Origin: Dietzia psychralcaliphila
Lineage (GTDB): Bacteria > Actinomycetota > Actinomycetes > Mycobacteriales > Mycobacteriaceae
DNA length: 64,000 bases
Assembly: GCF_003096095.1 (NCBI RefSeq)
Contig: NZ_CP015453.1
Span: forward strand, 3,782,001 to 3,846,000
Direction of reading: 5' to 3'
Positions 13,636 through 44,813 of the stretch are shown piece after piece. The translations under genes and the position numbers were made by a program. Each line of letters opens with the position of its first letter. Positions within the stretch are counted from its first letter, which is position 1. The notes under the pieces were generated by a model, which did not search any database, was not told the origin of the DNA, and was given only the letters and a program-made list of their open reading frames with translations.

Positions 13636-14691
13636 TCACCGCAGTCGCAGACCGGACTCCACGTCGAAGAAGCGGACCTCACCGTCGAGCGCGGCCAGGA
13701 ACATGGTCTCGCCCTTGCGCGGGTGGTCACCCGACTCGGCGCGATAGACCACTGGGTCTCCGTCTCCGGTGGAGCAGTGGAGGTAGCTGTCGGCCCCCAG
13801 CTCCTCGACGAGGTCCACGGTCACCTGCAGCCCGTGACCGTCCTCGGCGATCCGTAGGTGTTCCGGCCGCACGCCCACCGTGACCATCGCCCCGGTGCCG
13901 GGGGGGACCTCCTCACCGAACCCCTCCAGGTCGACCCTGCCGTCGGCCACGGGCGCGTCGAACAGGTTCATCGAGGGCGACCCGATGAAACCGGCGACGA
14001 AGGCGTTGACCGGGTTGTGATAGAGCTCGCGCGGGGTGTCGACCTGCTGCAGGATGCCGTCCTTGAGCACCGCCACCCGGTCTCCCATGGTCATGGCCTC
14101 CACCTGGTCGTGGGTCACGTAGATCATGGTGGTGCGCAGGTCACGCTGCAATTTGGCGATCTGGGCGCGGGTGGCCACCCGGAGCTTGGCGTCCAGGTTC
14201 GACAGCGGTTCGTCCATCAGGAACACCTGGGGACTGCGCACGATCGCCCGGCCCATGGCGACCCGCTGGCGCTGACCACCGGAGAGCTCCTTGGGCTTGC
14301 GGTCGAGGTAGTCCGAGAGGTCGAGCATCTCCGCCGCGCGGTCCACCCGCTCCGCGATCTCCTTCTTGGACGCCTTGGCCAGCTTGAGCGCGAAGCCCAT
14401 GTTCTCGCGCACCGTGTAGTGCGGGTAGAGAGCGTAGTTCTGGAACACCATCGCGATGTCCCGGTCCTTGGGCTCGGTCGCGGTGACGTCCTTGTCGCCG
14501 ATGAGGATGCGCCCGGCCGACACGTCCTCCAGTCCCGCGAGCGCGCGGAGAGTGGTGGACTTGCCGCAGCCCGACGGCCCGACCAGGACGAGGAACTCGC
14601 CGTCGGCGATCTCCAGATCGAGTCGGTCCACGCTGCGCCGTGCGGCACCCGGGTAGATGATGGACACGTTCTCGAAGGTCACCGAAGCCAT
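13636..14691 (-). CDS. musK: Sugar ABC transporter ATPase (MusK/MsiK/UgpC type)
   Basis: A 351-residue MalK-type ATPase. It has Walker A GPSGCGKSTT (residues about 38-47), Q-loop VFQNYALYPH, signature LSGGQRQRVAMGR, Walker B VFLMDEPLSNLD, and the H-loop YVTHDQVEAMTMGDR. The C-terminal OB/TOBE domain follows (VGVRPEHLRIAED). It energises MusF-MusG and, in actinobacteria, such ATPases often serve several sugar importers. It is encoded upstream of musE on the same strand but separated by 260 bases, so it may have its own promoter. Confidence 0.9.
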   Translation of the reverse strand: MASVTFENVSIIYPGAARRSVDRLDLEIADGEFLVLVGPSGCGKSTTLRALAGLEDVSAGRILIGDKDVTATEPKDRDIAMVFQNYALYPHYTVRENMGFALKLAKASKKEIAERVDRAAEMLDLSDYLDRKPKELSGGQRQRVAMGRAIVRSPQVFLMDEPLSNLDAKLRVATRAQIAKLQRDLRTTMIYVTHDQVEAMTMGDRVAVLKDGILQQVDTPRELYHNPVNAFVAGFIGSPSMNLFDAPVADGRVDLEGFGEEVPPGTGAMVTVGVRPEHLRIAEDGHGLQVTVDLVEELGADSYLHCSTGDGDPVVYRAESGDHPRKGETMFLAALDGEVRFFDVESGLRLR

Positions 14692-32839: not shown

Positions 32840-33739
32840 TCAGGCTCCCGCCGTCTCGGCCTCAGCGAACCCCCATAGCCGTTCGGCGATCTCCGGATCC
32901 GAGGCCTCGGCGGTCCTTCCGATGAGCGTGGGAATCCCCCTGAGGTTCCGCAGCCCGTCCGGCCCGGTGTAGCTGCACGGCGGTAGCGGCCGGGTGGCGG
33001 CGAACATCGTGGTGAGCGCCGCCTGCGAGGCAGGCTGGGCGAACACCGAGCAGACGCGGGTGATCACCGTGTCGACCACGGCGTTCCCGCTTGCGTTGGT
33101 AATCCCGGTCGCCGCCCACCCGGGGTGCGTGAGCTGCACGTCGACCCCCGCCACCGCGGCCTCGGCCCGTCCGTCCCGCAACCGCTGGTCCAGCGCGAGC
33201 CCCCACAGCATGTCGCCGAGTTTGGACTGGGCGTAGGCCGCCGCGGGGGTCCACCGATGTCGGCGGAAGTGGGGGTCGTCGAAATCGAAGGTCGCGGCCT
33301 TGTGCGCGTTGGACCCGACGATCACCACGCGGCGGCGCACACCCGAGAGAACGAGGTTCGTGAAGAGGAACGGTCCGAGCACGTTGACGCCGAGCAGCAT
33401 CTCGACTCCGTCGGCGGTCTCGCGGCGTCGCGGCGTGATGGCACCGGCGTTGTTGACCAGTACGTCGATAGGCTCGGCCTCCCCGCCACGCAGCTCGTCG
33501 GCGGCGCGTCGCACACTCTCGAGCGAGGCCAGGTCCAGCTCGACGACCCGCGACGGGCCCGGGAGCGCGTCCGCGACCTCTCGCCCCCGGGCGGTGTCGC
33601 GCACCGCGAGGACGACCCGGGCTCCGCGGTCCGAGGCGGAGCGGGCGGTCTCCAGACCGACGCCGCTGGTCGCCCCCGTGATGAGCCACGTCTGGCCGGT
33701 TAGGTCCGGGGTCCCGATGCTCTTGAGTGCCACGGGCAC
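32840..33739 (-). CDS. SDR-family oxidoreductase, retinol-dehydrogenase-like
   Basis: A 299-residue SDR with TGATSGVGLETA (cofactor loop, residues about 20-31), the mononucleotide site DLASLESV, the structural motif NNAG near 95, and catalytic YAQSKLGDMLWGLALDQRL near 170. The long C-terminal part with VQLTHPGWAATGI fits the extended retinol-dehydrogenase/WWOX-like group. Start is GTG 33739 or GTG 33733. It begins 3 bases after the stop of an unknown 153-residue gene on the same strand, which suggests a two-gene unit. Substrate unknown. Confidence 0.85.
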   Translation of the reverse strand: MPVALKSIGTPDLTGQTWLITGATSGVGLETARSASDRGARVVLAVRDTARGREVADALPGPSRVVELDLASLESVRRAADELRGGEAEPIDVLVNNAGAITPRRRETADGVEMLLGVNVLGPFLFTNLVLSGVRRRVVIVGSNAHKAATFDFDDPHFRRHRWTPAAAYAQSKLGDMLWGLALDQRLRDGRAEAAVAGVDVQLTHPGWAATGITNASGNAVVDTVITRVCSVFAQPASQAALTTMFAATRPLPPCSYTGPDGLRNLRGIPTLIGRTAEASDPEIAERLWGFAEAETAGA

Positions 33740-33742
33740 AGG

Positions 33743-34204
33743 CTACTGAAGCCGTGAAGTGCTGAGCCATCCCCTCAGCACCCCTACCATGCTCGAGCGA
33801 GTGCTCGACCGCTGCTGCGCGACAAGTTCCTCAATCCGCGCCCAAGGAACAACCTTCCGAATTGCCCCACACTGCGACGTGAAGTTGGGCCCCGCTGCGT
33901 CCGCCGCAGCAACGGCCCGGTCAACCGTTGCTGAGTCCTCACCGAGCGCCTCGGCCATCCAGATGAGTGCTGGCGCGCATCGAAGGCTGTTGTATGCAGA
34001 TTTCGCGTCACGACCGCGGGACTTCCTGCCGTACGCGCCGGGACCTTCCATCTCGGACATCCACCGAACCATGTGTTCACGCTGGTCGCGATAGCTGGTC
34101 CTCGGGTCCGAAGATCCTTGACGATGTCTCTGCTCGTACGCAGTAGTGATTGGCGGCCCCGGCTGCAAGGTCGCTAGCACTCTGGCGAACTGAGGTCCTC
34201 TCAT
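33743..34204 (-). CDS. Hypothetical protein beside the restriction island
   Basis: A 153-residue charged cytosolic protein with no recognised family. Visible features are SSDPRTSYRDQREHMVRWMS, an Arg/Lys-rich YGRKSRGRDAKSAYNSLR, and a C-terminal KVVPWARIEELVAQQRS. Base composition is lower in GC than neighbouring genes, like parts of the restriction operon to its right. It may be an island-edge gene. Its stop lies 3 bases before the SDR start. Confidence 0.55.
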   Translation of the reverse strand: MRGPQFARVLATLQPGPPITTAYEQRHRQGSSDPRTSYRDQREHMVRWMSEMEGPGAYGRKSRGRDAKSAYNSLRCAPALIWMAEALGEDSATVDRAVAAADAAGPNFTSQCGAIRKVVPWARIEELVAQQRSSTRSSMVGVLRGWLSTSRLQ

Positions 34205-34328: not shown

Positions 34329-35795
34329 ATGACCCGCGTGATCACCGGTGAACTCAAGAGCAAGATCGACGGAGTCTGGACCGCCTTCTGGTCGGGCGGC
34401 ATCAGCAACCCACTCGAGGTGATCGAGCAGATCACGTACCTGCTCTTCATCCGACGACTCGACGATCTGCAGACGCTGCAGGAGAACAAGGCTCGGCGAC
34501 TGGGCGAGCCACTCACCGACCCGACGTTCAAGCCGGGCCAGGACCAGCTCCGCTGGTCGCGCTTCAAGAACGCGGAGCCGGGAGCGATGTTCAGGATCGT
34601 CGACGACGAGGTGTTCCCGTTCTTGAGGCAACTCGGAGGCGAGGAGTCCACTTACGCCGATCACATGAAGGATGCCCGCTTCACCGTGCCCACCCCGGCG
34701 CTGCTGAGCAAAGTCGTCGACATGCTCGACGGCGTGCCCATGCACGACCGCGATACCAATGGCGATCTCTACGAGTACATGCTCGGCAAACTCGCCTCGG
34801 CCGGCCAGAACGGCCAGTTCAGGACCCCGCGCCACATCATCCAGCTAATGGTGTCCATGACGGACCCCGAGCCGCGCGACGAGATCTGCGATCCCGCCTG
34901 CGGCACTGCTGGCTTTCTGGTGTCCGCGGCCGAGCATATGCGCGAGCACCATCCGACCGTTCTCACTGACGCTGTCCAGCGAAAGCACTTCGCGACGTCA
35001 ATGTTCCACGGGTACGACTTCGACTCCACCATGCTGCGCATCGGCAGCATGAACATGCTCATGCACGGCGTCGAGTCGCCGGACATTCGCTATCGCGACT
35101 CACTTTCCGAAGTGGCGGCGGACACCGAGGGGCGCTACACCCTCATCCTCGCCAACCCGCCGTTCGCGGGAAGTCTGGACTACGAATCTACGTCCAAGGC
35201 GCTGCTCAAGGACGTCAAGACCAAGAAGACGGAGCTACTCTTCCTGGCCCTGTTCTTGCGGCTGCTCAAACCGGGCGGTCGCGCGGCAGTAATCGTCCCC
35301 GACGGTGTCCTGTTCGGCTCGACCACTGCCCACAAGGCGCTTCGCAAGAGACTGGTCGAGGAGCAGAAGCTCGACGCGGTGGTCAAACTCCCCTCGGGCG
35401 TGTTCAAGCCGTACGCCGGGGTGTCCACCGCCATCTTGTTCTTCACCAAGACTGACTCCGGCGGCACCGATGACGTCTGGTTCTACGACATCCGCGCTGA
35501 CGGCTTCTCCCTCGACGACAAGCGCAATCCTATCGAAGCCAATGACCTGCCGGATGTGCTCGCCCGCTGGCAGAACCGCGACGCCGAGGCCGCCCGTGCC
35601 CGAACCGAGCAGTCCTTTCTGGTGCCCAAGGCCGAAATCGTGGCCGAGGGATACGACCTGTCGATCAACCGCTACAAGGAGCTCATCTTCGAGGAGGTCG
35701 AGACCCGCGACCCGCTGGATATCATCGCCGAGCTCGAAGACCTCGAGGGTGAGATCCAGCAGGGACTCGCGGAGTTGAAAGCGATGTTGTCGTGA
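34329..35795 (+). CDS. hsdM: Type I restriction-modification DNA methyltransferase HsdM
   Basis: A 488-residue N6-adenine methyltransferase. The N-terminal helical HsdM domain (SKIDGVWTAFWSGGISNPLEVIEQITYLLF, split here by its helices) precedes the SAM-binding motif DPACGTAGFL near residues 187-196 and the catalytic NPPF in ILANPPFAGS near residue 275. It acts with HsdS, which selects the DNA target, to modify host DNA and protect it from HsdR. It is the first gene of a seven-gene operon; its stop overlaps the hsdS GTG start by 4 bases. The 124 bases upstream hold no gene and should contain the operon promoter. Confidence 0.96.
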   Translation: MTRVITGELKSKIDGVWTAFWSGGISNPLEVIEQITYLLFIRRLDDLQTLQENKARRLGEPLTDPTFKPGQDQLRWSRFKNAEPGAMFRIVDDEVFPFLRQLGGEESTYADHMKDARFTVPTPALLSKVVDMLDGVPMHDRDTNGDLYEYMLGKLASAGQNGQFRTPRHIIQLMVSMTDPEPRDEICDPACGTAGFLVSAAEHMREHHPTVLTDAVQRKHFATSMFHGYDFDSTMLRIGSMNMLMHGVESPDIRYRDSLSEVAADTEGRYTLILANPPFAGSLDYESTSKALLKDVKTKKTELLFLALFLRLLKPGGRAAVIVPDGVLFGSTTAHKALRKRLVEEQKLDAVVKLPSGVFKPYAGVSTAILFFTKTDSGGTDDVWFYDIRADGFSLDDKRNPIEANDLPDVLARWQNRDAEAARARTEQSFLVPKAEIVAEGYDLSINRYKELIFEEVETRDPLDIIAELEDLEGEIQQGLAELKAMLS

Positions 35796-36955
35796 GCAGG
35801 TGGCCGATGGTGGCGCTCGGCGAACTAATCAGCCCCTCAGGCCGGCGAGCAGGTTCCAATGTGGAGGCTCCCGTCTATTCCGTTACGAAGCATGCGGGAT
35901 TCGTCCCCAGTCTCGAGTACTTTAGAAAACAGGTTTTCAGCAGGGACATTTCGAAATATAAAGTCGTTGAACACGGCGAGTTCGCATATGCAACTATTCA
36001 CCTCGACGAAGGATCGATCGGAATAGCGCCCGAACAAGCTCTCATAAGCCCCATGTACACAATTTTCAAAGTTAGACAGGAGAAAATAGACTCTCACTAC
36101 TTGTTGCGCTATCTAAAAAGCCCACGCGCGCTTCAAACTTACCCGCAGCTTGGACAAGGCGCCGTCCACCGCAGAAAATCCATTGCCCTATCCTCGCTCG
36201 GCAAGCTGCTCGTTCCCGTCCCTCCGCTTGACGAGCAGCGACGTATTGCCAAGACCCTTGATCGCAGTGCAGGTATTAGGAGTTCGCGAAAACGCTCATT
36301 CGAACTAGCGCGTGAACTGCAAACCGCGTCTTTCATTGACCTTTTTGGCAGCCCCGCCACCTGGATAGACCGGTGGCCGATGGGCACGATTGGCGACATC
36401 ACGGAATCGACTCAGTACGGCACCTCTGAGAAATCTGGGCCAGATGGGACGACTCCCGTTCTCCGAATGGGAAACATCACTACTGACGGCCGATTGGACA
36501 CCAGCGATCTGAAGTATATGAATTTATCCGAAGCCGATCGAGAGAAATTCACGACTAGACGCGGCGACATCCTATTCAACCGAACTAACAGCCCTGACCT
36601 TGTCGGGAAAACTGCGGCAGTCCGGAACGACGAACATTTTGCCTTCGCCGGGTACTTGATAAGGCTCCGGCTAGTAGATGAGTTCGAGCCCGACTTCGTA
36701 TCCGGATACCTGAATAGCGCATATGGAAAAGTGCTGCTGCGGTCGATGTGCAAGTCGATTGTGGGTCAGGCCAACATCAACGCTAAAGAGCTACGGCGTA
36801 TACCGATCGCGCTCCCGCCGGCCGCAGTCCAGCGTGAGTACCGCGACGTCGTTTCGCAGGTGGAGCGCCACGCTGCGCTGCTGGCCACCAGCGATAGCGC
36901 TGTGAACGCTACGCTCGCATCTCTTCAAACCCGCGCATTCCGAGGCGAACTCTGA
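35792..36955 (+). CDS. hsdS: Type I restriction-modification specificity subunit HsdS
   Basis: A 387-residue specificity protein with two target-recognition domains. The first ends in PVPPLDEQRRIAKTLDR (residues about 142-158) and a conserved helix. The second spans residues about 185-350 (GDITESTQYGTSEKSG, RGDILFNRTNSPDLVGK, GQANINAKELRRIPIALPPA) and ends with a second helix. The arrangement dictates a bipartite DNA target. Most of the gene is clearly richer in A and T than its operon partners, as expected for exchanged recognition domains. It starts inside the hsdM stop and its own stop overlaps the next ATG (TGATG). Confidence 0.93.
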   Translation: MSRWPMVALGELISPSGRRAGSNVEAPVYSVTKHAGFVPSLEYFRKQVFSRDISKYKVVEHGEFAYATIHLDEGSIGIAPEQALISPMYTIFKVRQEKIDSHYLLRYLKSPRALQTYPQLGQGAVHRRKSIALSSLGKLLVPVPPLDEQRRIAKTLDRSAGIRSSRKRSFELARELQTASFIDLFGSPATWIDRWPMGTIGDITESTQYGTSEKSGPDGTTPVLRMGNITTDGRLDTSDLKYMNLSEADREKFTTRRGDILFNRTNSPDLVGKTAAVRNDEHFAFAGYLIRLRLVDEFEPDFVSGYLNSAYGKVLLRSMCKSIVGQANINAKELRRIPIALPPAAVQREYRDVVSQVERHAALLATSDSAVNATLASLQTRAFRGEL

Positions 36956-38070
36956 TGCCCGTCGAAATGGGGATCTGGCGGATCGACGGCAGGGCTCCGC
37001 GACGGCTCAGTGCGAGCCAGTTGCCCACCGAGTCCATGTTGGAAGAGTTCTTGGAGCAAGACCCGACGCTCCTGGGTGAACGCCTCCTCGTCGTCGGACG
37101 TCAGATTCGAACGCCGTACGGGAAATACATCGACCTCTTGGCCATGGACATCGAGGGCAACCTGCACGTCCTAGAGCTCAAACGGGACAAGACACCCCGC
37201 GACGTGGTGGCGCAGGTCCTCGACTACGGCTCGTGGGTCTCGACGTTGGACCGCGAGACCGTAATCGAACTCGCCAATACGCAGCTGGACGCTGCGTTCG
37301 AGACCGCGTTCGAAGAGGTCTTCGGCGTCTCCGCTCCCGACGAGATCAACGGATCGATCAATCTCGTCGTGGTGGCGACCGACATCGATTCGTCGTCGGA
37401 GCGGATCGTCACCTACCTCCGGGAGTTCGGCGTACCGGTCAACGTCGTCTTCTTTACCCACCTCGAGGATGAAGGACGTCGCTACCTAGCGCGATCGTGG
37501 CTGGCCGGCGACGACGAGGGAGCGCACCGATCGGTGTCGGGACCCCGGGGCGCGAAGGGCAAGAAGGCGGAGTGGAACGGGATCGACTGGTTTGTCTCCT
37601 TCGGCGAGGAGGGCAGTAGATCCTGGGAGGACGGCCGCCGGTACGGATTCGTCTCCGCTGGCGGCGGGCGCTGGTACTCCGACTCACTCCATAACCTGCC
37701 AGTAGGCGCCCGTGTCAACGTCCACATCCCCAAGCGCGGATACGTGGCCGTCGGCACCGTGCTGCGGGAGGCGACACGGTTCGATGACGCAATGGTCGAG
37801 GTTGACGGGCAGTGGGTGCGGCTGCGGGATCAGGAGTTGAACGCCCCGTACCGGCATTCGCCCGAGGGCGTGAATGAGAACGGCAACGATAGCGACGACG
37901 ACGAGTACGTCGTCCCCGTGAAGTGGACAAATGCCGTTCCGCAGTCCGATGCACTCTGGGTCAAGGGGATGTTCGCCAACCAGAACAGTGCCTGCAAGCT
38001 GCGGCAGGAGTTCACCCTGGACCGGCTCGGCGAGCACTTCGCGCTGGACCAGATCGAGGAGACACTATGA
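36955..38070 (+). CDS. DUF91/NucS-like PD-(D/E)XK nuclease
   Basis: A 371-residue protein. The N-terminal nuclease fold carries the catalytic set D60 in KYIDLLAMD and E74-L-K76 in LHVLELKRDK, preceded by MLEEFLEQDPTLLGERLLVV, the pattern of DUF91/NucS endonucleases. The C-terminal ~180 residues contain a GKKAEWNGIDWFVSFGEEGS region and a WVKGMFANQNSACKLR end that I do not recognise. It is not a standard type I subunit. Location between hsdS and mrr, with TGATG and ATGA overlaps, makes it an integral part of the operon. It may restrict DNA of a different modification state. Confidence 0.8.
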   Translation: MPVEMGIWRIDGRAPRRLSASQLPTESMLEEFLEQDPTLLGERLLVVGRQIRTPYGKYIDLLAMDIEGNLHVLELKRDKTPRDVVAQVLDYGSWVSTLDRETVIELANTQLDAAFETAFEEVFGVSAPDEINGSINLVVVATDIDSSSERIVTYLREFGVPVNVVFFTHLEDEGRRYLARSWLAGDDEGAHRSVSGPRGAKGKKAEWNGIDWFVSFGEEGSRSWEDGRRYGFVSAGGGRWYSDSLHNLPVGARVNVHIPKRGYVAVGTVLREATRFDDAMVEVDGQWVRLRDQELNAPYRHSPEGVNENGNDSDDDEYVVPVKWTNAVPQSDALWVKGMFANQNSACKLRQEFTLDRLGEHFALDQIEETL

Positions 38071-38951
38071 CCGTCGATCCCACCTGGGACCAGTACATGG
38101 CCCCCGCGCTGCCGGTGCTCCTGGACGGTGAGGTCCACCGCGCCCGCGACATCTGCACTTCCGCTGCCGATCTGCTCGGCGTCAGCGCAGAGAAGCGACT
38201 GGAGACAATCCCCTCCGGCCAGCAGCGGTACCGCAACCGTGCTAATTGGGCTCTGTCGTACCTCTACCGCGCCGGTGCCGCTGAACGGCCAGTACGTGGG
38301 CACTACCGCATTACGGATGCGGGACGGAAGCTGTGCGCTGACCATCCGGACGGAATCAAGGAGAAGGATCTCGCGTCGCTTGATGGCCCAGTTCCAAACC
38401 CTCCGGTGGTCGACCCTCCCGACGAGCCAACGGAGTTGGACCCGGTGGAGCAGGTGTCGCTCGGAGTCGAACGCCTGCATTCTGCTGTCGCGACCGACCT
38501 GCTCAATCGGCTCCACGCGAACGAGCCCGTCTTCTTCGAACAAGCGGTCCTCGACCTCATCATGGCAATGGGATACGGCGGCGCCGAAGGAACGGCCAGC
38601 CGCACCCAACTCTCCAACGATGGCGGGATCGACGGAATCGTCGACCAGGATGCCCTCGGGTTAAGCCGCATCTACGTACAGGCCAAGCGCTTCGCCCTCG
38701 ACGCGACCATCCACCGGCCCACGATCCAGGCCTTCGTCGGAGCCCTCCACGGAAATCAAGCCAACCAGGGCGTCTTCATCACCACAGCGCGCTTCAGCAG
38801 CGGCGCCCGGGCCTACGCCGACTCCGTCCCGACGCGAGTCGTGCTCATCGACGGCCCGCGGCTGGCCTCGCTGATGATCCGCTACAGCGTGGGTGTGCAG
38901 GTCAACCAGACCGTCCACATCGTCGAGGTGGACGAGGACTTCTTCGAGTGA
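38067..38951 (+). CDS. mrr: Mrr-type (type IV) restriction endonuclease
   Basis: A 294-residue protein starting at ATG 38067 inside the preceding stop (ATGA). Residues 1-95 form an Mrr N-terminal winged helix (ANWALSYLYRAGAAERPVRG, YRITDAGRKL). The catalytic domain has NDGGIDGIVDQDALGLSRIY then VQAKRF near residues 188-215, the D...QxK variant of the PD-(D/E)XK core used by Mrr enzymes. Mrr cuts DNA that carries foreign methylation (established for the family). Together with HsdRMS it would attack both unmodified and wrongly modified DNA. An 81-base gap follows, with a possible internal promoter. Confidence 0.92.
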   Translation: MTVDPTWDQYMAPALPVLLDGEVHRARDICTSAADLLGVSAEKRLETIPSGQQRYRNRANWALSYLYRAGAAERPVRGHYRITDAGRKLCADHPDGIKEKDLASLDGPVPNPPVVDPPDEPTELDPVEQVSLGVERLHSAVATDLLNRLHANEPVFFEQAVLDLIMAMGYGGAEGTASRTQLSNDGGIDGIVDQDALGLSRIYVQAKRFALDATIHRPTIQAFVGALHGNQANQGVFITTARFSSGARAYADSVPTRVVLIDGPRLASLMIRYSVGVQVNQTVHIVEVDEDFFE

Positions 38952-38980
38952 TCCGCTGAAAGCTGGCCACACGACAAGCC

Positions 38981-39008
38981 TTGCGAAAGATTCGAAACCG
39001 GCTTACGC
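38981..39008 (+). promoter_or_regulatory. Possible internal promoter for the antitoxin-toxin-hsdR genes
   Basis: TTGCGA (38981-38986) and TTACGC (39003-39008) are separated by 16 bases, and a strong AAGGAGAAG ribosome site and ATG follow at 39033. This is the only gap of note within the operon. Weak prediction from sequence alone. Confidence 0.35.
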
Positions 39009-39032
39009 TTCTTGCAGATCCAAGGAGAAGCG

Positions 39033-39527
39033 ATGACCACACTGCTCGAGCCCAAGACCTACCCTCCCAGCGAGAACGCCGGCGTCGCGGAGATCGACGA
39101 CCTGCTTCACTCCGGCGATACACCGACATTCGCCCTGGTCAACGGCTCTCACTCTGTCGCGCTACCGGCCGAGATCAACGCCATCCTCACTCAGGTCGTC
39201 GCCGCGATGCGGGCCGGCAAGGCGATCACCGTGACCCCGCAGTCCCAGAGCCTCACCACCCAGCAGGCGGCCGACCTGCTGGGAATGAGTCGTCCGACAC
39301 TGGTCAAGTTGATCGACGCAGGTGAGATACCGTGCACTCGAACCAGCAACCGGCGGATGCTGCTGCTCGATGACGTACTCGAGTATCGCCGCAAACGCCG
39401 CGACCGTCAGCTCGCTGCGATCGCGGCCACGCAAGCTGACCTAGTCGAGGACCTCGAGCCCGAAGAAATGCTCGGCATACTCGCCGAAGCACGGGCGGCG
39501 CGACGGAAGCGAATCGACCGAGGTTGA
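39033..39527 (+). CDS. Excisionase-type HTH antitoxin-like protein
   Basis: A 164-residue protein starting at ATG 39033 after AAGGAGAAG. The N-terminal half is divergent. Residues about 78-128 form a MerR/excisionase-type DNA-binding domain: LTTQQAADLLGMSRPTLVKL then IPCTRTSNRRMLLLDDVLEY. The C-terminal helix DLEPEEMLGILAEARAARRK is the probable toxin-binding part. Excisionase-fold proteins directly upstream of PIN genes are typical antitoxins that also repress their own promoter. The PIN gene starts 35 bases later. Confidence 0.82.
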   Translation: MTTLLEPKTYPPSENAGVAEIDDLLHSGDTPTFALVNGSHSVALPAEINAILTQVVAAMRAGKAITVTPQSQSLTTQQAADLLGMSRPTLVKLIDAGEIPCTRTSNRRMLLLDDVLEYRRKRRDRQLAAIAATQADLVEDLEPEEMLGILAEARAARRKRIDRG

Positions 39528-39562
39528 ACACGGGATCGAGGACGGCTGCCACAATGTGACAT

Positions 39563-40159
39563 GTGCTTGCAGCCGTACTCGACACCTGTGTGTTGTTCAA
39601 CGGCCTAACCCGAGACTTATTGCTGTCATTGGTCGCCTTCGACTCATACCGTCTGGTCCTGACCGAGGCCAATATCGAGGAGATCGAGGACGTAGAGACT
39701 CGCAAACTCATGAAGCAGGGGCACGACCGCGAACTGGCCGAGAGAAGGGCAGCGTTCCTCGCCTCGCAACTCAGGGAAAACTTCGAGGTCGTCTGCCGGT
39801 CCCGCTCCACTCTCGTCGCCCCTGTCGGTCTGCCTGATCCCGACGACGAGCACCTCGTGGCCGCAGCCGTCGCAGGAGGAGCCGAGGTCATAGTCACCGC
39901 GAACTTCAAAGACCTTCCTGACCATCTCCTGCCCTCTGGAGTACGTACCCAGGATGCGCCGTCATTCCTTCACGACATGATCTGCGCCGACCCCGGCAAG
40001 GCTGCATCGGCTCTGCTCGCGATGAGCGAACGTCGCCGCACACCACCACAGTCCGAACTCGACATCCTCGGTCTATTAGTACTGAAGGGGCAGTTGCGCC
40101 CGTCCACAGCCGAAATTGTTCGGTCAGCCCTGTCCCGCATGAGAGAAGACCATAGATGA
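39563..40159 (+). CDS. PIN-domain toxin-like ribonuclease
   Basis: A 198-residue protein starting at GTG 39563. PIN acidic residues are present: D7 in VLDTCVLFNG, E40 region in TEANIEEIEDVE, D94-D95 in DPDDEHLVAAA, and D117 in TANFKDLPDHLL. PIN toxins of VapC type cleave RNA, often tRNA or rRNA. The C-terminal 60 residues (SERRRTPPQSELDILGLLVL) extend beyond a minimal PIN fold and may bind a partner. Its stop overlaps the hsdR ATG by 4 bases, an unusual place for a toxin gene. This suggests co-expression with the restriction subunit. Confidence 0.85.
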   Translation: MLAAVLDTCVLFNGLTRDLLLSLVAFDSYRLVLTEANIEEIEDVETRKLMKQGHDRELAERRAAFLASQLRENFEVVCRSRSTLVAPVGLPDPDDEHLVAAAVAGGAEVIVTANFKDLPDHLLPSGVRTQDAPSFLHDMICADPGKAASALLAMSERRRTPPQSELDILGLLVLKGQLRPSTAEIVRSALSRMREDHR

Positions 40160-43100
40160 CCTCCAACTTCGACTTTGTCCCCGCCGAGTGGGGCAGCGTC
40201 CGCGCCGACGCGATCCAGGCGGAGTCGAATGGTCGGACCGACCCCCGCGTGAGTGTGTTCTACGCCCGTCGCGTGCTGGAGCAGGTCGTCGTCCTGATCT
40301 TCGATCTCGAGCGGCTCCCGCTGCCATACAACTCCGACCTCAGTGGACGGCTCGGCGATCCCGGGTTCATCGCCTCCGTGGGCCCGGAGATCGTCTCGAA
40401 AGCGACCATCATCCGCAAGGCCGGAAACCGCGCGGTCCACGACAAGAAGGAGATCCAGGAAACGTCCGCCCTCGAGATACTGCGGCAGCTCCACGACCTG
40501 CTCAAATGGGCCGCCTACAGCTATTCGTCCACGCCTGATGACGTGCCCACCTCGTCGTCGTACGATCCTTTGCTCATTCCGGCACCCGCCGCCACGGGCG
40601 GCCAACCCCCACTCACCGCGGCGGAACTCGCCCAGCTCAACAACGTCCTAGAGGCCAAGGACGCCGCGCTCGCGGCGGAGAAGGCCACCAGTTCCGCGCT
40701 GCAGGCGCAGATCGACGAGCTAATCGCCAAGGTCCAGCAGGCTCAGAAGACCAAGGACGCCCCCGAGCCGACCTTCGACGTGAGTGAGGCCGAGACCCGG
40801 CGCCAGTTCATCGACGCGGACCTGCGCGAGGCCGGGTGGGACCTGACCGACGCGCGGGACCGCGAGTTCCCCGTCACCGGGATGCCCAACGACACCGGGC
40901 AGGGATTCGTCGACTACGTGCTCTGGGGAGAGGACGGCTTGCCCCTGGCACTGGTCGAGGCCAAGAGATCGCTCGCCGACGCCACGATCGGCCAGCAACA
41001 GGCCAAGCTCTACGCGGACTGTCTGGGAGCGAAGTTCGGCCGTCGCCCCGTCATCTTCTTCACCAACGGGTTCGAGCGCTGGCTCTGGGACGACGCGATG
41101 TACCCGGCGCGCCGCGTCAGCGGCTTTTTGACCCGGGGCGAGCTGGAGCTCACCGTGCAGCGCCGGCATTCACGAGCGCCGCTCGAGGCGACGCCCGTCG
41201 ACAAGACCATCGTGGAGCGGCATTACCAGCAGCATGCAATCCGCTCGGTCGACGACGTCTTCACGCGAGGGCAGCGTGAGGCGCTCCTAGTCATGGCCAC
41301 CGGATCCGGCAAGACCCGCGTCGCAATCGCATTGGTGGACCAGCTCATGAAGGCCGGCTGGGTCAAGCGCGTGCTCTTCCTGGCCGACCGCGTGGCCCTG
41401 GTCAACCAGGCCGTGTCCGCGTTCAAGGCGCACCTACCGTCGGCCACCACCGTCAACTTGGTCACGGAGAAGAATCAGGAGGGGCGCGTCTACGTCTCCA
41501 CGTATCCCACGATGATGGGGCTGATCAACCAGACCGACGACGGCCGCCGCACCTTCGGCCCCGGGCACTTCGACCTCGTGGTTATAGACGAGGCCCACCG
41601 GTCGGTGTATCAGAAGTACGGGGCGATCTTCGAGTGGTTTGACTCATTGCTCGTGGGCCTCACCGCCACGCCCAAGGACGAGGTCGACCGCAACACCTAC
41701 AGCCTGTTCCACCTCGAGGACGGCGTCCCGACCGACGCGTACAGCCTCGACGACGCCGTGGCCGAGGGCTACCTGGTGCCGCCCGTGGGAGTGTCCGTGC
41801 CGACCCGGTTCCTGCGCGAGGGCATCCACTACGACCAGCTGTCGGAGGCCGAGAAAGACGAGTGGGACCTCCAGGACTGGGGTGACGACGAAGCGCCCAC
41901 CGACATCGACCCCGAGGAACTCAACCGCTGGCTCTTCAACGCCGACACCGTGGACAAGGTGCTGGCAACCCTCATGGAGAACGGCCACAAGGTGGCTGGT
42001 GGCGACCGACTGGGCAAGACGATCATCTTTGCCAAGAACTACGCCCACGCCAAGTTCATCTGGGAGCGCTTCGACCTGGCCTACCCGGAATACAAGGGCG
42101 AGTTCGCCAAAATCATCACCTACAAGTCCGAGTATGCGCAGAGCCTCATCGACGACTTCTCCGAGACGGACAAATTCCCGCATATCGCGATAAGTGTTGA
42201 CATGCTCGACACGGGGATCGACGTCCCCGAGGTGGTCAACCTCGTGTTCTTCAAGATGGTCCGGTCGGCGTCCAAGTTCTGGCAGATGATCGGAAGGGGG
42301 ACACGCCTGGCGCCGGATCTCTACGGACCCGGGGAGGACAAGAAGAACTTCTATGTTTTCGATTTCTGCATGAACCTCGAATACTTCAACCAACCCGGTG
42401 CCGGCAGCGAGGGTTCGGTGCAGAAGTCTCTCGGTCAGCGACTGTTCGAGGCGCGGCTCGGACTAGTCTCCGCCCTGGACCAGTCTGCCCCGGGCCAGGG
42501 GGGCAGCCCGGTCGACCCCGAGCTCCGCGATGCCACCGCCCGGCACCTCCACGAGATCGTCGCCGGCATGAACCTCGACAACTTCTTGGTCCGGCCCAAG
42601 CGCGAGTGGGTCCTGAAGTACCAGGACTGGGCGCGTTGGGACCGCCTCACCCCCCAGCGCGCGGGAGAGGTCGCCGAGCACCTCGCGGGCGTGCCCTCGA
42701 CCGTGAAGGACGACGACGAACAAGCCAAGCGGTTCGATCTACTGCTCCTCCGGACCCAGCTGGCGGTCCTCGAAGGCGATCACGTGACCGCCGAGAGGAC
42801 GCGGGGGCAGATCCAGGAGATCGCCGGAAGTCTCCTGTCCCAGACCGCCATCCCGGCGGTCGCCGCGCAGCAGCAGCTCCTCGCTGAAGTCTCGGAGGAC
42901 GAATGGTGGCAGGACGTGACGCTGTCCATGCTCGAGCTGGCGCGACTCCGGATCCGCGGGCTCGTGCGCTTCCTGGAGAAGTCGGCGCGCGCTGTCGTCT
43001 ACACCAACTTCAAGGACGAGCTTGGCGAGGGATCAATAGTTGAGCTGCCCGGGATGGCAGTCGGCACCAACTGGGAGCGCTTCAAGGCCAAGTCCCGGGC

Positions 43101-43554
43101 GTACCTCCTTGAGCACGAGGACCATATCGCCCTACAGAAGTTGCGACGAAACAAGCAGCTCACCGCGGCCGACCTGGCGTCGCTAGAAGAGATGCTGGCC
43201 AACTCCGGCGCGGGCGGCCCCGAGGACGTCGCTCGGGCTCGGGAGGAGGCCAACGGCCTGGGCCTCTTCGTCCGCTCCCTCGTGGGGCTCGACCGCCAAG
43301 CGGCCACAGAGGCGTTCTCTGAGTTTCTGTCCGACTCCACGCACTCCGCCACGGAAATCCGGTTCATCCAGCTCATCGTGGAGGAACTCACCGCGAACGG
43401 GGTGGTCCCCGCTGCCCGACTCTACGAATCACCGTTCACCGACCACTCACCTACCGGGCCGGACGTGCTGTTTCCCGGGGCCGCCGGCGACCGCATCTTC
43501 GTGATCCTCGACGAAGTGCGGGGCCGAGCGCTGCCTGACATGGGAGTCGCATAG
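40156..43554 (+). CDS. hsdR: Type I restriction endonuclease/translocase HsdR
   Basis: A 1132-residue motor-nuclease. Residues about 20-115 are a DUF4145 domain, and 155-195 form a coiled coil. The HsdR nuclease core follows at about 250-270 (DYVLWGEDGLPLALVEAKRS, with D and ExK). The SF2 motor then shows Walker A ATGSGKTRVAI near 380, DEAH-box VVIDEAHRSVYQ near 476, and helicase C-terminal DMLDTGIDVPEVVNLVFFKM then IGRGTRLAP near 690-720. It pumps and cuts unmodified DNA with HsdM-HsdS. Separation from hsdM-hsdS by four accessory genes is unusual. It begins inside the PIN gene stop and is the last gene of the operon. Confidence 0.95.
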   Translation: MTSNFDFVPAEWGSVRADAIQAESNGRTDPRVSVFYARRVLEQVVVLIFDLERLPLPYNSDLSGRLGDPGFIASVGPEIVSKATIIRKAGNRAVHDKKEIQETSALEILRQLHDLLKWAAYSYSSTPDDVPTSSSYDPLLIPAPAATGGQPPLTAAELAQLNNVLEAKDAALAAEKATSSALQAQIDELIAKVQQAQKTKDAPEPTFDVSEAETRRQFIDADLREAGWDLTDARDREFPVTGMPNDTGQGFVDYVLWGEDGLPLALVEAKRSLADATIGQQQAKLYADCLGAKFGRRPVIFFTNGFERWLWDDAMYPARRVSGFLTRGELELTVQRRHSRAPLEATPVDKTIVERHYQQHAIRSVDDVFTRGQREALLVMATGSGKTRVAIALVDQLMKAGWVKRVLFLADRVALVNQAVSAFKAHLPSATTVNLVTEKNQEGRVYVSTYPTMMGLINQTDDGRRTFGPGHFDLVVIDEAHRSVYQKYGAIFEWFDSLLVGLTATPKDEVDRNTYSLFHLEDGVPTDAYSLDDAVAEGYLVPPVGVSVPTRFLREGIHYDQLSEAEKDEWDLQDWGDDEAPTDIDPEELNRWLFNADTVDKVLATLMENGHKVAGGDRLGKTIIFAKNYAHAKFIWERFDLAYPEYKGEFAKIITYKSEYAQSLIDDFSETDKFPHIAISVDMLDTGIDVPEVVNLVFFKMVRSASKFWQMIGRGTRLAPDLYGPGEDKKNFYVFDFCMNLEYFNQPGAGSEGSVQKSLGQRLFEARLGLVSALDQSAPGQGGSPVDPELRDATARHLHEIVAGMNLDNFLVRPKREWVLKYQDWARWDRLTPQRAGEVAEHLAGVPSTVKDDDEQAKRFDLLLLRTQLAVLEGDHVTAERTRGQIQEIAGSLLSQTAIPAVAAQQQLLAEVSEDEWWQDVTLSMLELARLRIRGLVRFLEKSARAVVYTNFKDELGEGSIVELPGMAVGTNWERFKAKSRAYLLEHEDHIALQKLRRNKQLTAADLASLEEMLANSGAGGPEDVARAREEANGLGLFVRSLVGLDRQAATEAFSEFLSDSTHSATEIRFIQLIVEELTANGVVPAARLYESPFTDHSPTGPDVLFPGAAGDRIFVILDEVRGRALPDMGVA

Positions 43555-43592: not shown

Positions 43593-44813
43593 ATGCGCTT
43601 TCCCGCCACCTGCTCCCGCCGTCCGCTGGCCTCGGCGGTCGCCGCCCTCGTCGTCGTCGTAACGGGGGTCGTCTCCTCCGCAATCCTCGTACCGGCCACG
43701 GCGTCAGCCCAGCCCGCGCCACGGTGGTCCGGACTGGACACCCGCCACTGGGACCGGCCGGTCCCGGCGCCAGGCGTTCCGGCGACCTCCGTTCCACTGG
43801 ATCCCTCACTCTCACTGCCGGAGGCCGGGCGGGCGGTGCGCTCGGCATACGGGACGATCGATCAACACGGGCGCTCCGCGATCGCCACCTCGGCTGTGTT
43901 CCTGCCGCACGGCACTCCCCCGCCGGGCGGGTGGCCCGTGGTGGCCTGGGCGCACGGGACCACCGGGCTGGGAGACGACTGCGCGCCGTCGACTCAGCCG
44001 CGCTCCGAACGGGACAGCGAGTACCTGGGCCACTGGCTGCGCCAGGGGTATGCCGTGGTGGCGGCGGACTACGTTGGCCTCGGCACGCCGGGCCTGCTCA
44101 GCTACCTGAACGGGCAGGTCGCCGCACGCGGGATCATCGACGCTGTCAGTGCCGCACGGGCCGACGGGCTCCCGCTCTCCCCGACATGGGCGTTGGTGGG
44201 CCAGTCGCAGGGCGCGGGGGCTGCTCTGGTCACCGCCACGCGGGCAACCGAACTGGGCGCCCCCGCGGGGCTGGACTACCGCGGAGTCGTGGCCACCGGT
44301 GCCCCCGCCAACCTCGAGCACCTCTTCCAGTGGGGCGGACCGGGCTTCCCGCCGGTGTCGCTCCCCACCGGCCTCAACCTCTACGCCTTCTACATCCTCG
44401 CGGGACTCCGAGACCAGCACCCCGAGTTCGAGCTAGACCGGTTCCTCACCGCGCGAGGCCGCGAGATGGTCGATACCGCCGAACACCTCTGCTACGACGA
44501 CATGCGCGAGGCGGTGGGCGACTTCCAGATCTCCCAGGCGCTGACCAGGCCGGTCAAGGACATCCCGGACGTCTACGGTCACCTGGCCCGATACATGGGC
44601 ACCCCGGCAGCCGGTTACGACCGACCCGTCTTCCTGGGGCAGGGCCTGCTCGACCTGGACGTGCCCGCTCCCTCCGCTCTCTCGCTCGCCGCGCAGATGA
44701 CCCTGAACAAGCAACCGCTCGAACTGCACGTCTATCCGGACAGGGACCACAGCGGAACGGTCTACGCGGCGACGCCGGACGCCACGGCGTTCCTGGACCG
44801 GGTGATGGGCTGA
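43593..44813 (+). CDS. Secreted LIP-family lipase/esterase
   Basis: A 406-residue secreted protein. The signal peptide LASAVAALVVVVTGVVSSAI precedes a cleavage region TASAQPAP near residues 38-40. The secretory-lipase (LIP) fold shows VVAWAHGTTGLGDDCAPS, AVVAADYVGLGTPG, the nucleophile elbow GQSQGAG near residue 206, and the C-terminal PVFLGQGLLDLDVP with HVYPDRDHSG for acid and histidine. It likely hydrolyses triacylglycerols or wax-type esters outside the cell. A second member lies at 48072. It begins 38 bases after hsdR but is unrelated to it in role. Confidence 0.87.
   Translation: MRFPATCSRRPLASAVAALVVVVTGVVSSAILVPATASAQPAPRWSGLDTRHWDRPVPAPGVPATSVPLDPSLSLPEAGRAVRSAYGTIDQHGRSAIATSAVFLPHGTPPPGGWPVVAWAHGTTGLGDDCAPSTQPRSERDSEYLGHWLRQGYAVVAADYVGLGTPGLLSYLNGQVAARGIIDAVSAARADGLPLSPTWALVGQSQGAGAALVTATRATELGAPAGLDYRGVVATGAPANLEHLFQWGGPGFPPVSLPTGLNLYAFYILAGLRDQHPEFELDRFLTARGREMVDTAEHLCYDDMREAVGDFQISQALTRPVKDIPDVYGHLARYMGTPAAGYDRPVFLGQGLLDLDVPAPSALSLAAQMTLNKQPLELHVYPDRDHSGTVYAATPDATAFLDRVMG

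Follow-up and report, generated by a model that had tools for sequence, protein, structure and literature searches.

Embedding of defense genes in type I restriction–modification (RM) operons is already published, to judge from the available parts of the sources, for DarTG2, TgvAB, and PrrC. The DarTG2 pair separates hsdS from hsdR in a type I RM island of enteropathogenic Escherichia coli, at a site called a potential recombination hotspot (PMC12255303); TgvAB is embedded in the type I RM cluster of VPI-2 in Vibrio cholerae, and complementarity against modified and unmodified phages has been proposed for it (PMC11411939); and PrrC, an anticodon nuclease that inhibition of RM switches on, is encoded in EcoprrI, a type IC locus (PMC12707154). 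Here, we have tried to focus on one further case, a seven-gene operon of Dietzia psychralcaliphila (genome size 3.9 Mb) with the order hsdM-hsdS-DUF91-mrr-HTH-PIN-hsdR. It occupies positions 34329–43554, + strand, of a 64,000-nt stretch of contig NZ_CP015453.1 that we call the window. We think it probable that this type I RM operon, of the EcoAI/EcoEI-like kind, is mobile and that its hsdS–hsdR interval acts as an embedding slot, stacked in this instance with three modules.

How does it compare? Like the DarTG2/RptR island, which also has seven ORFs (open reading frames), it carries a putative toxin–antitoxin pair in the same type I slot; unlike it, the toxin belongs to another family, and that island has a dedicated repressor, RptR, at its start and, in the part of the source available, no mention of Mrr or DUF91 (PMC12255303). 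With TgvAB, it shares predicted modification-dependent restriction within a type I operon, but TgvAB is a GmrSD-related pair rather than Mrr or NucS-EVE, and no toxin–antitoxin is mentioned in that portion of the text (PMC11411939). EcoprrI likewise encodes an RNA-cutting protein inside a type I locus, an activity that is putative for PIN here (PMC12707154). The window PIN_3 protein, however, has an HTH partner of its own, and no window protein has a PrrC-family match among its Pfam, NCBIfam, or PADLOC hits, the mark by which a PrrC guard would be recognized. In the open PMC literature, we did not meet the seven-gene combination, the cross-phylum HTH-PIN-hsdR layout described below, or a NucS-EVE/YTH reading of PDC-S11. 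Stacking itself is known, then, and it is the combination of three modules and the predicted sensor of modified DNA that seem to us worth testing.

The Operon and Its Type I Core

All seven ORFs lie on one strand, in the order given by a preliminary description of this DNA, and their families match. That description also held that nearly all junctions overlap, with one gap. Overlaps are found at four of the six: hsdM/hsdS (4 nt, 35792–35795), hsdS/DUF91 (1 nt, 36955), DUF91/mrr (4 nt, 38067–38070), and PIN/hsdR (a 4-nt ATGA, 40156–40159). The 81-nt gap between mrr and HTH (38952–39032) is as described, but it is one of two, since 35 nt (39528–39562) also separate HTH from PIN, whose start is a GTG at 39563.

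The product of hsdM (34329..35795; 488 aa) is an N6-adenine DNA methyltransferase subunit (Pfam N6_Mtase, 221 bits, and HsdM_N, 65 bits; PADLOC MTase_I, 656 bits vs. 156 for mad2). HsdS (35792..36955; 387 aa) has two Methylase_S stretches (Pfam), and HsdR (40156..43554; 1132 aa) is an EcoAI/EcoEI-like restriction/translocase subunit (Pfam ResIII and EcoEI_R_C, 85 bits; PADLOC REase_I, 544 bits), scoring 256 bits against the NCBIfam EcoAI family, under that model's cut-off of 550. HsdM contains the strings DPACGT and NPPF, and HsdR contains VDY, ExK, GSGKT, and DEAH; by family and motif search, then, three co-oriented hsd genes with catalytic motif strings make a type I RM system. We take the strings found in HsdM, DUF91, Mrr, PIN, and HsdR to have their usual catalytic meaning. 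Membership in MADS was considered and rejected because the scores against the MAD equivalogs are too low (HsdM, 109 of 720 bits; HsdS, 33 of 400 bits).

A Slot Whose Contents Turn Over

The four accessory genes were indeed built into the hsdS–hsdR interval, as had been proposed, and their frames are intact. Were they built in together, as parts of one composite defense system, which was the larger claim of the preliminary description? Among the loci examined, that claim is not supported: the outcome largely agrees with what had been set out in advance as refuting it, a rare order with variable accessory genes. We scanned the GTDB contig collection with DUF91 and annotated the best 80 of 104 relatives with the seven window proteins. 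The complete order was found beyond the window in one genome, Dietzia sp. UBA5065 (L046); a truncated, near-identical contig (L045) ends inside the HTH gene and is probably misbinned, since its HsdM, DUF91, and Mrr scores are the same as those of UBA5065 under a Dehalococcoidia label. Five more loci (L047, L049, L050, L053, and L123) have hsdM-hsdS-DUF91 ahead of hsdR. Broader queries, which include ORFs of the examined loci at a threshold of 60 bits, were needed to detect HsdS in L045 and L046; they found both HsdM and HsdR in 8 of the 80 loci, part only in 12, and none in the flanks (often <10 kb) of 60.

Starting from HsdR gives the same picture of independent assortment. A strong HsdR orthologue is present in 3 of 23 genus genomes (the window, UBA5065, and Dietzia aerolata), and at E 1e-100, HsdR is found in 19 of 394 class genomes, the window included. 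Among 18 non-window HsdR loci, the slot is empty in seven (L155, L156, L159, L163, L164, L165, and L167) and holds DUF91 alone in four (L158, L160, L161, and L162) or DUF91 with a 147-aa ORF of marginal RusA match (L153). Elsewhere, it holds a DEDDh exonuclease (PADLOC PDC-S48; L154), Fic (L166 and L157, the latter without an upstream hsdM/hsdS match), or ORFs without identification (L168 and L169); in L170, which has a divergent HsdR-like protein (45%), a weaker HTH-PIN pair lies ∼2.2 kb upstream with a Replic_Relax gene between. Closer to home, D. aerolata has an SLFN_AlbA_2 protein between Mrr and hsdR, and AlbA_2 proteins stand behind DUF91 in L049 and L053. L053 and L050 are a Hoyosella pair with HsdR 96% identical, and in L050, hsdR follows DUF91 with no gene in between; the DUF91 of L053 is broken by a stop. 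In D. aerolata, hsdM is preceded at a distance of 14 bases by the end of a 2096-aa ORF (L047, 1037–7327) that looks helicase-like on reading.

Plasmids add to the variety. In 9 of 38 plasmid HsdR records, which we read, the slot is empty (L301 and L307) or holds HTH-PIN (L308 and L309), a DUF262/DUF1524 (GmrSD-like) protein plus an ORF (Ruegeria), XisH/XisI-like and Uma2 proteins (Leptolyngbya, L306), a 169-aa ORF (Thioclava), two ORFs on the opposite strand (Arthrobacter ERGS1:01), or, read by eye, Mrr in pieces (Arthrobacter pA58H3). Two of these plasmids carry something more: a PIN protein that separates hsdM from hsdS in Leptolyngbya (L306, 4604–4996) and, at 0.8 kb downstream of hsdR in Shewanella, a gene (L307, 5650–6999) annotated as a cyclic GMP-AMP synthase DncV-like nucleotidyltransferase.

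Selection and History

Between the window and UBA5065, dN/dS is ∼0.05–0.13 for hsdM, DUF91, mrr, HTH, PIN, and hsdR, so six of the seven genes are under purifying selection. The seventh, hsdS, is not comparable: UBA5065 has a different, half-length HsdS of 172 aa (L046, 9483–10001) where the window has its 387-aa protein. The synonymous divergence (dS) is 0.55 for hsdM, 0.46 for DUF91, 0.28 for mrr, 0.30 for HTH, 0.35 for PIN, and 0.34 for hsdR, below the 0.65 and 0.68 of two flanking genes; the GC content of the module genes (55–66%) is also below that of the flanking stretches (70–71%). Together, these differences suggest that the module changed place once the species had separated; hsdS was replaced.

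In an HsdR tree of 34 rows (L158 included; L123, whose contig has an equal length of 157,042 bases, left out), the window and UBA5065, with DUF91, Mrr, and HTH-PIN, group with D. aerolata, with DUF91, Mrr, and AlbA_2, and L049, with DUF91 and AlbA_2, branches next outside, each fork at 100/100. The simplest reading would be that Mrr was gained and that AlbA_2 was exchanged for HTH-PIN. One RM lineage thus offers an ordered natural series of defense layers (DUF91+AlbA_2; DUF91+Mrr+AlbA_2; DUF91+Mrr+HTH-PIN), and therefore, the benefit of each layer is testable in near relatives.

The Predicted Sensors of Modified DNA

DUF91 is coinherited with HsdR: its identities correlate with those of HsdR over 11 loci (r 0.80, reached in 0 of 5000 permutations; L053 entered with its open piece). 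The protein (36955..38070; 371 aa) matches Pfam NucS_C at 25.9 bits (cut-off 24) and, near full length (residues 1–364), the PADLOC candidate family PDC-S11 at 493 bits. A predicted model and its fold matches divide it into a NucS-type PD-(D/E)XK nuclease domain (∼21–171), with the string D60-E74xK76-Q87xxxY, and an EVE/YTH-like C-terminal domain (∼207–371), in which W207 and W324 are invariant and W212, W240, and W335 are nearly so. Sequence searches did not return this second domain: 67 family members gave, at E up to 1, a list of 19 Pfam families without EVE, YTH, or ASCH, and a PDB sequence search with the C-terminal profile matched none of them.

The library gives PDC-S11 without function, and the EVE/YTH-like domain is our reading of it. 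VcaM4I (EVE-HNH) and the YTH-like/PD(D/E)XK fusions also join a modification reader of the PUA superfamily to a nuclease; to go by the available parts of those sources, the window protein differs in that its nuclease is of the NucS/EndoMS type and precedes the reader (PMC7897488, PMC7641849). It is not a NucS orthologue, because the N-terminal DNA-binding domain of NucS is absent: residues 24–107 align by profile with residues 125–207 of the 251 of NucS, and only ∼20 residues precede the domain. Compared with NucS/EndoMS structures (2vld, 5gke), it has the EVE/YTH-like C-terminal domain in place of that N-terminal one. Among the open PMC papers listed for this subject, none has both "EVE domain" and "NucS." The predicted architecture is, we think, a concrete hypothesis for an uncharacterized family. 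In this RM lineage, where DUF91 is a partner of long standing, it most likely cuts DNA with particular modified bases, the presumed ligand of the EVE/YTH-like domain. The preliminary suggestion that DUF91 restricts a third DNA state survives to this extent: modification sensing is plausible from the predicted fold.

Beyond the operon, DUF91 has a match in 30 of 397 order genomes, seven of them full length at at least 50% identity (window included); one of the six others adjoins a different type I system (L039), and five have no Hsd match. PDC-S11 relatives occur in 96 plasmid records from haloarchaea, Deinococcus, and many bacteria. PHROGs returned no match for DUF91 or for PIN.

Mrr (38067..38951; 294 aa), with an Mrr_N winged helix and an Mrr_cat domain (Pfam; PADLOC mREase_IV, 256 bits) that contain GGID and QxK, is a type IV endonuclease by family; we follow PMC12707154, as far as its accessible text goes, in naming the catalytic motif D-QxK. 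By analogy with its family, it would cut wrongly modified DNA. At 1e-20, it matches in 17 of 298 order genomes. Of the 18 neighborhoods examined, seven place it within a type I operon (L281, L282, L286, L289, L290, L295, and L296), none of them with DUF91, one (L288) has hsdM/hsdS-like genes ending 2.3 kb away, and 10 have no Hsd match. The orders are diverse: hsdM-hsdS-Mrr, a HipA_C match under its cut-off, an ORF, Fic, and hsdR in L281; hsdM-Mrr-hsdS-hsdR, with an EcoR124-type HsdR, in L282; and hsdR-hsdS-Mrr-318 aa-PIN-hsdM in L290 (4175–11999). The PIN of L290 is from another Pfam family, which we read as convergent stacking of Mrr and PIN. Mrr would then be a second, putatively modification-dependent nuclease that repeatedly entered type I operons.

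The HTH-PIN Pair and the Gap Before It

The HTH protein (39033..39527; 164 aa), of the HTH_17 (excisionase) family (Pfam, 47 bits; NCBIfam excise domain), is a putative antitoxin and autoregulator, and PIN_3 (39563..40159; 198 aa; Pfam, 55 bits) is a putative RNase toxin. PIN has acidic patches by motif string search and scores 79.7 bits against the NCBIfam RSP_2648 PIN family, under the cut-off of 170; that it cuts RNA is what its family would predict. In PADLOC, PIN has no match and HTH only a weak one to mad1 (23 bits). PIN matches at 1e-10 in 48 of 298 order genomes, and an HTH homologue lies directly upstream in each of the 29 loci that we read out of 52 non-window match rows, a conserved antitoxin–toxin gene pair of the type II (VapBC-like) kind. 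Pairing of PIN_3 in PMC7157771, in the part available, is with RHH_6, not HTH_17. No Hsd match was found near PIN in 20 larger neighborhoods, several of them ending at contig ends. Plasmids of two other species, Chryseobacterium oryzae and C. balustinum, carry an HTH_17-PIN_3 pair that is preceded by hsdS and one small ORF and followed by hsdR; the two proteins of the C. oryzae pair are 36% and 30% identical to those of the window, the two PINs are 96% identical to each other, and the Chryseobacterium rows are far from the Dietzia rows in the HsdR tree. Four of 300 plasmid records were read besides: a Flavobacterium plasmid has HTH-PIN upstream of a type I operon, and in Myroides and Hymenobacter plasmids, the pair adjoins no such operon. 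We read HTH-PIN as a stand-alone toxin–antitoxin cassette, which sits directly before hsdR.

Might HTH instead be mainly a switch for hsdR, repressing a promoter in the 81-nt gap, with PIN and hsdR coupled in translation, such that restriction comes late after transfer? The gap (38952..39032) contains, read by eye, a promoter-like TTGCGA-17-TACGCT (38981–39009) and a palindrome CGAA-N3-TTCG (38984–38994); it is 88% identical in L046, where both are kept, and the ATGA overlap of PIN and hsdR, together with RptR as a published small repressor of a type I RM island that itself contains a toxin–antitoxin (PMC12255303, in the part available), would fit. However, a consensus promoter and terminator scan did not list the sequence and gave no excess over shuffles, the 16-mer bearing the palindrome does not recur elsewhere in the window (e.g., before hsdM), its sole match being there by construction, and most relatives have hsdR without HTH. 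Binding of HTH to the palindrome being putative, we hold this switch to be unlikely.

What the Stacked Operon Might Do

If the operon is a mobile RM system with an embedding slot, HsdR would restrict unmodified DNA, Mrr and DUF91 would deal with phage DNA that escapes it through modification, and PIN would penalize loss or disturbance of the operon. One can also imagine an integrated seven-part system, in which PIN is a PrrC-like guard freed on RM inhibition or loss and the nucleases act jointly on DNA that the RM complex has captured. The co-oriented genes and four overlapping junctions, the purifying selection on six genes, the precedent of PrrC inside EcoprrI (PMC12707154, as far as the source was available), the occurrence in two phyla of HTH-PIN immediately ahead of hsdR, and L290, another type I operon that combines Mrr with a PIN from a different family in Pfam, all lean that way. 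We nevertheless give it a small chance: close relatives lack or swap the accessory parts, DUF91 stands by itself at this chromosomal site in L196, HTH-PIN pairs mostly occur without RM, and no window protein matches the PrrC family. Quite improbable, too, is a graded immune circuit in which HTH represses an internal promoter for PIN and hsdR, NucS-EVE/YTH (a new modification-dependent class) and Mrr destroy DNA invisible to the type I enzyme, RM inhibition or loss releases PIN, which halts the cell, and the HTH-PIN-hsdR layout arose independently in Bacteroidota. That the accessory genes are passengers in a tolerant spot, contributing little to defense, is very unlikely; the strong turnover of the slot and the broken copies of DUF91 (L053) and Mrr (L296 and L303) in such operons would allow it, but DUF91, mrr, HTH, and PIN are under purifying selection, DUF91 is coinherited with HsdR, and most of the slot genes that match a family are nucleases or toxin-like.

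The Chromosomal Site

The module lies between a short-chain-dehydrogenase-like (SDR) gene (32840..33739, − strand) and a secreted lipase-like gene (43593..44813, + strand), both named by reading the translation; the two are close together in module-free relatives. The lipase gene is matched at the DNA level in 22 of the 23 genus genomes (in G404 over 43 bases only), and the Dietzia copies of the module sit before it. We surveyed the SDR–lipase interval in 15 stretches, of which 13 were read and 2 were too short to use. The genes are 222–592 bases apart in four (L199, L200, L201, and L206) and 219 in L197, where ∼43 bases (13925–13968) match, by eye, the DUF91 3′ end of L196, apparently a deletion scar. 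In L196 (12756–14003), DUF91 alone, without type I RM and with its extreme C terminus frameshifted relative to the window, fills the interval. L209 has the whole module; L210, with the D. aerolata module, has no SDR match in its stretch, nor do L202 and L208; and L204, L205, and L207 have 5–6.5 kb of different genes that look ordinary on reading. The idea that this interval is a general defense hotspot of the genus was not borne out by these 13 stretches. Between the SDR gene and the module, the window also has a 153-aa gene without a Pfam match (33743–34204, − strand), and a 73% homologue of it in D. aerolata (L210, 11797–12219) is found across the module, at its other end.

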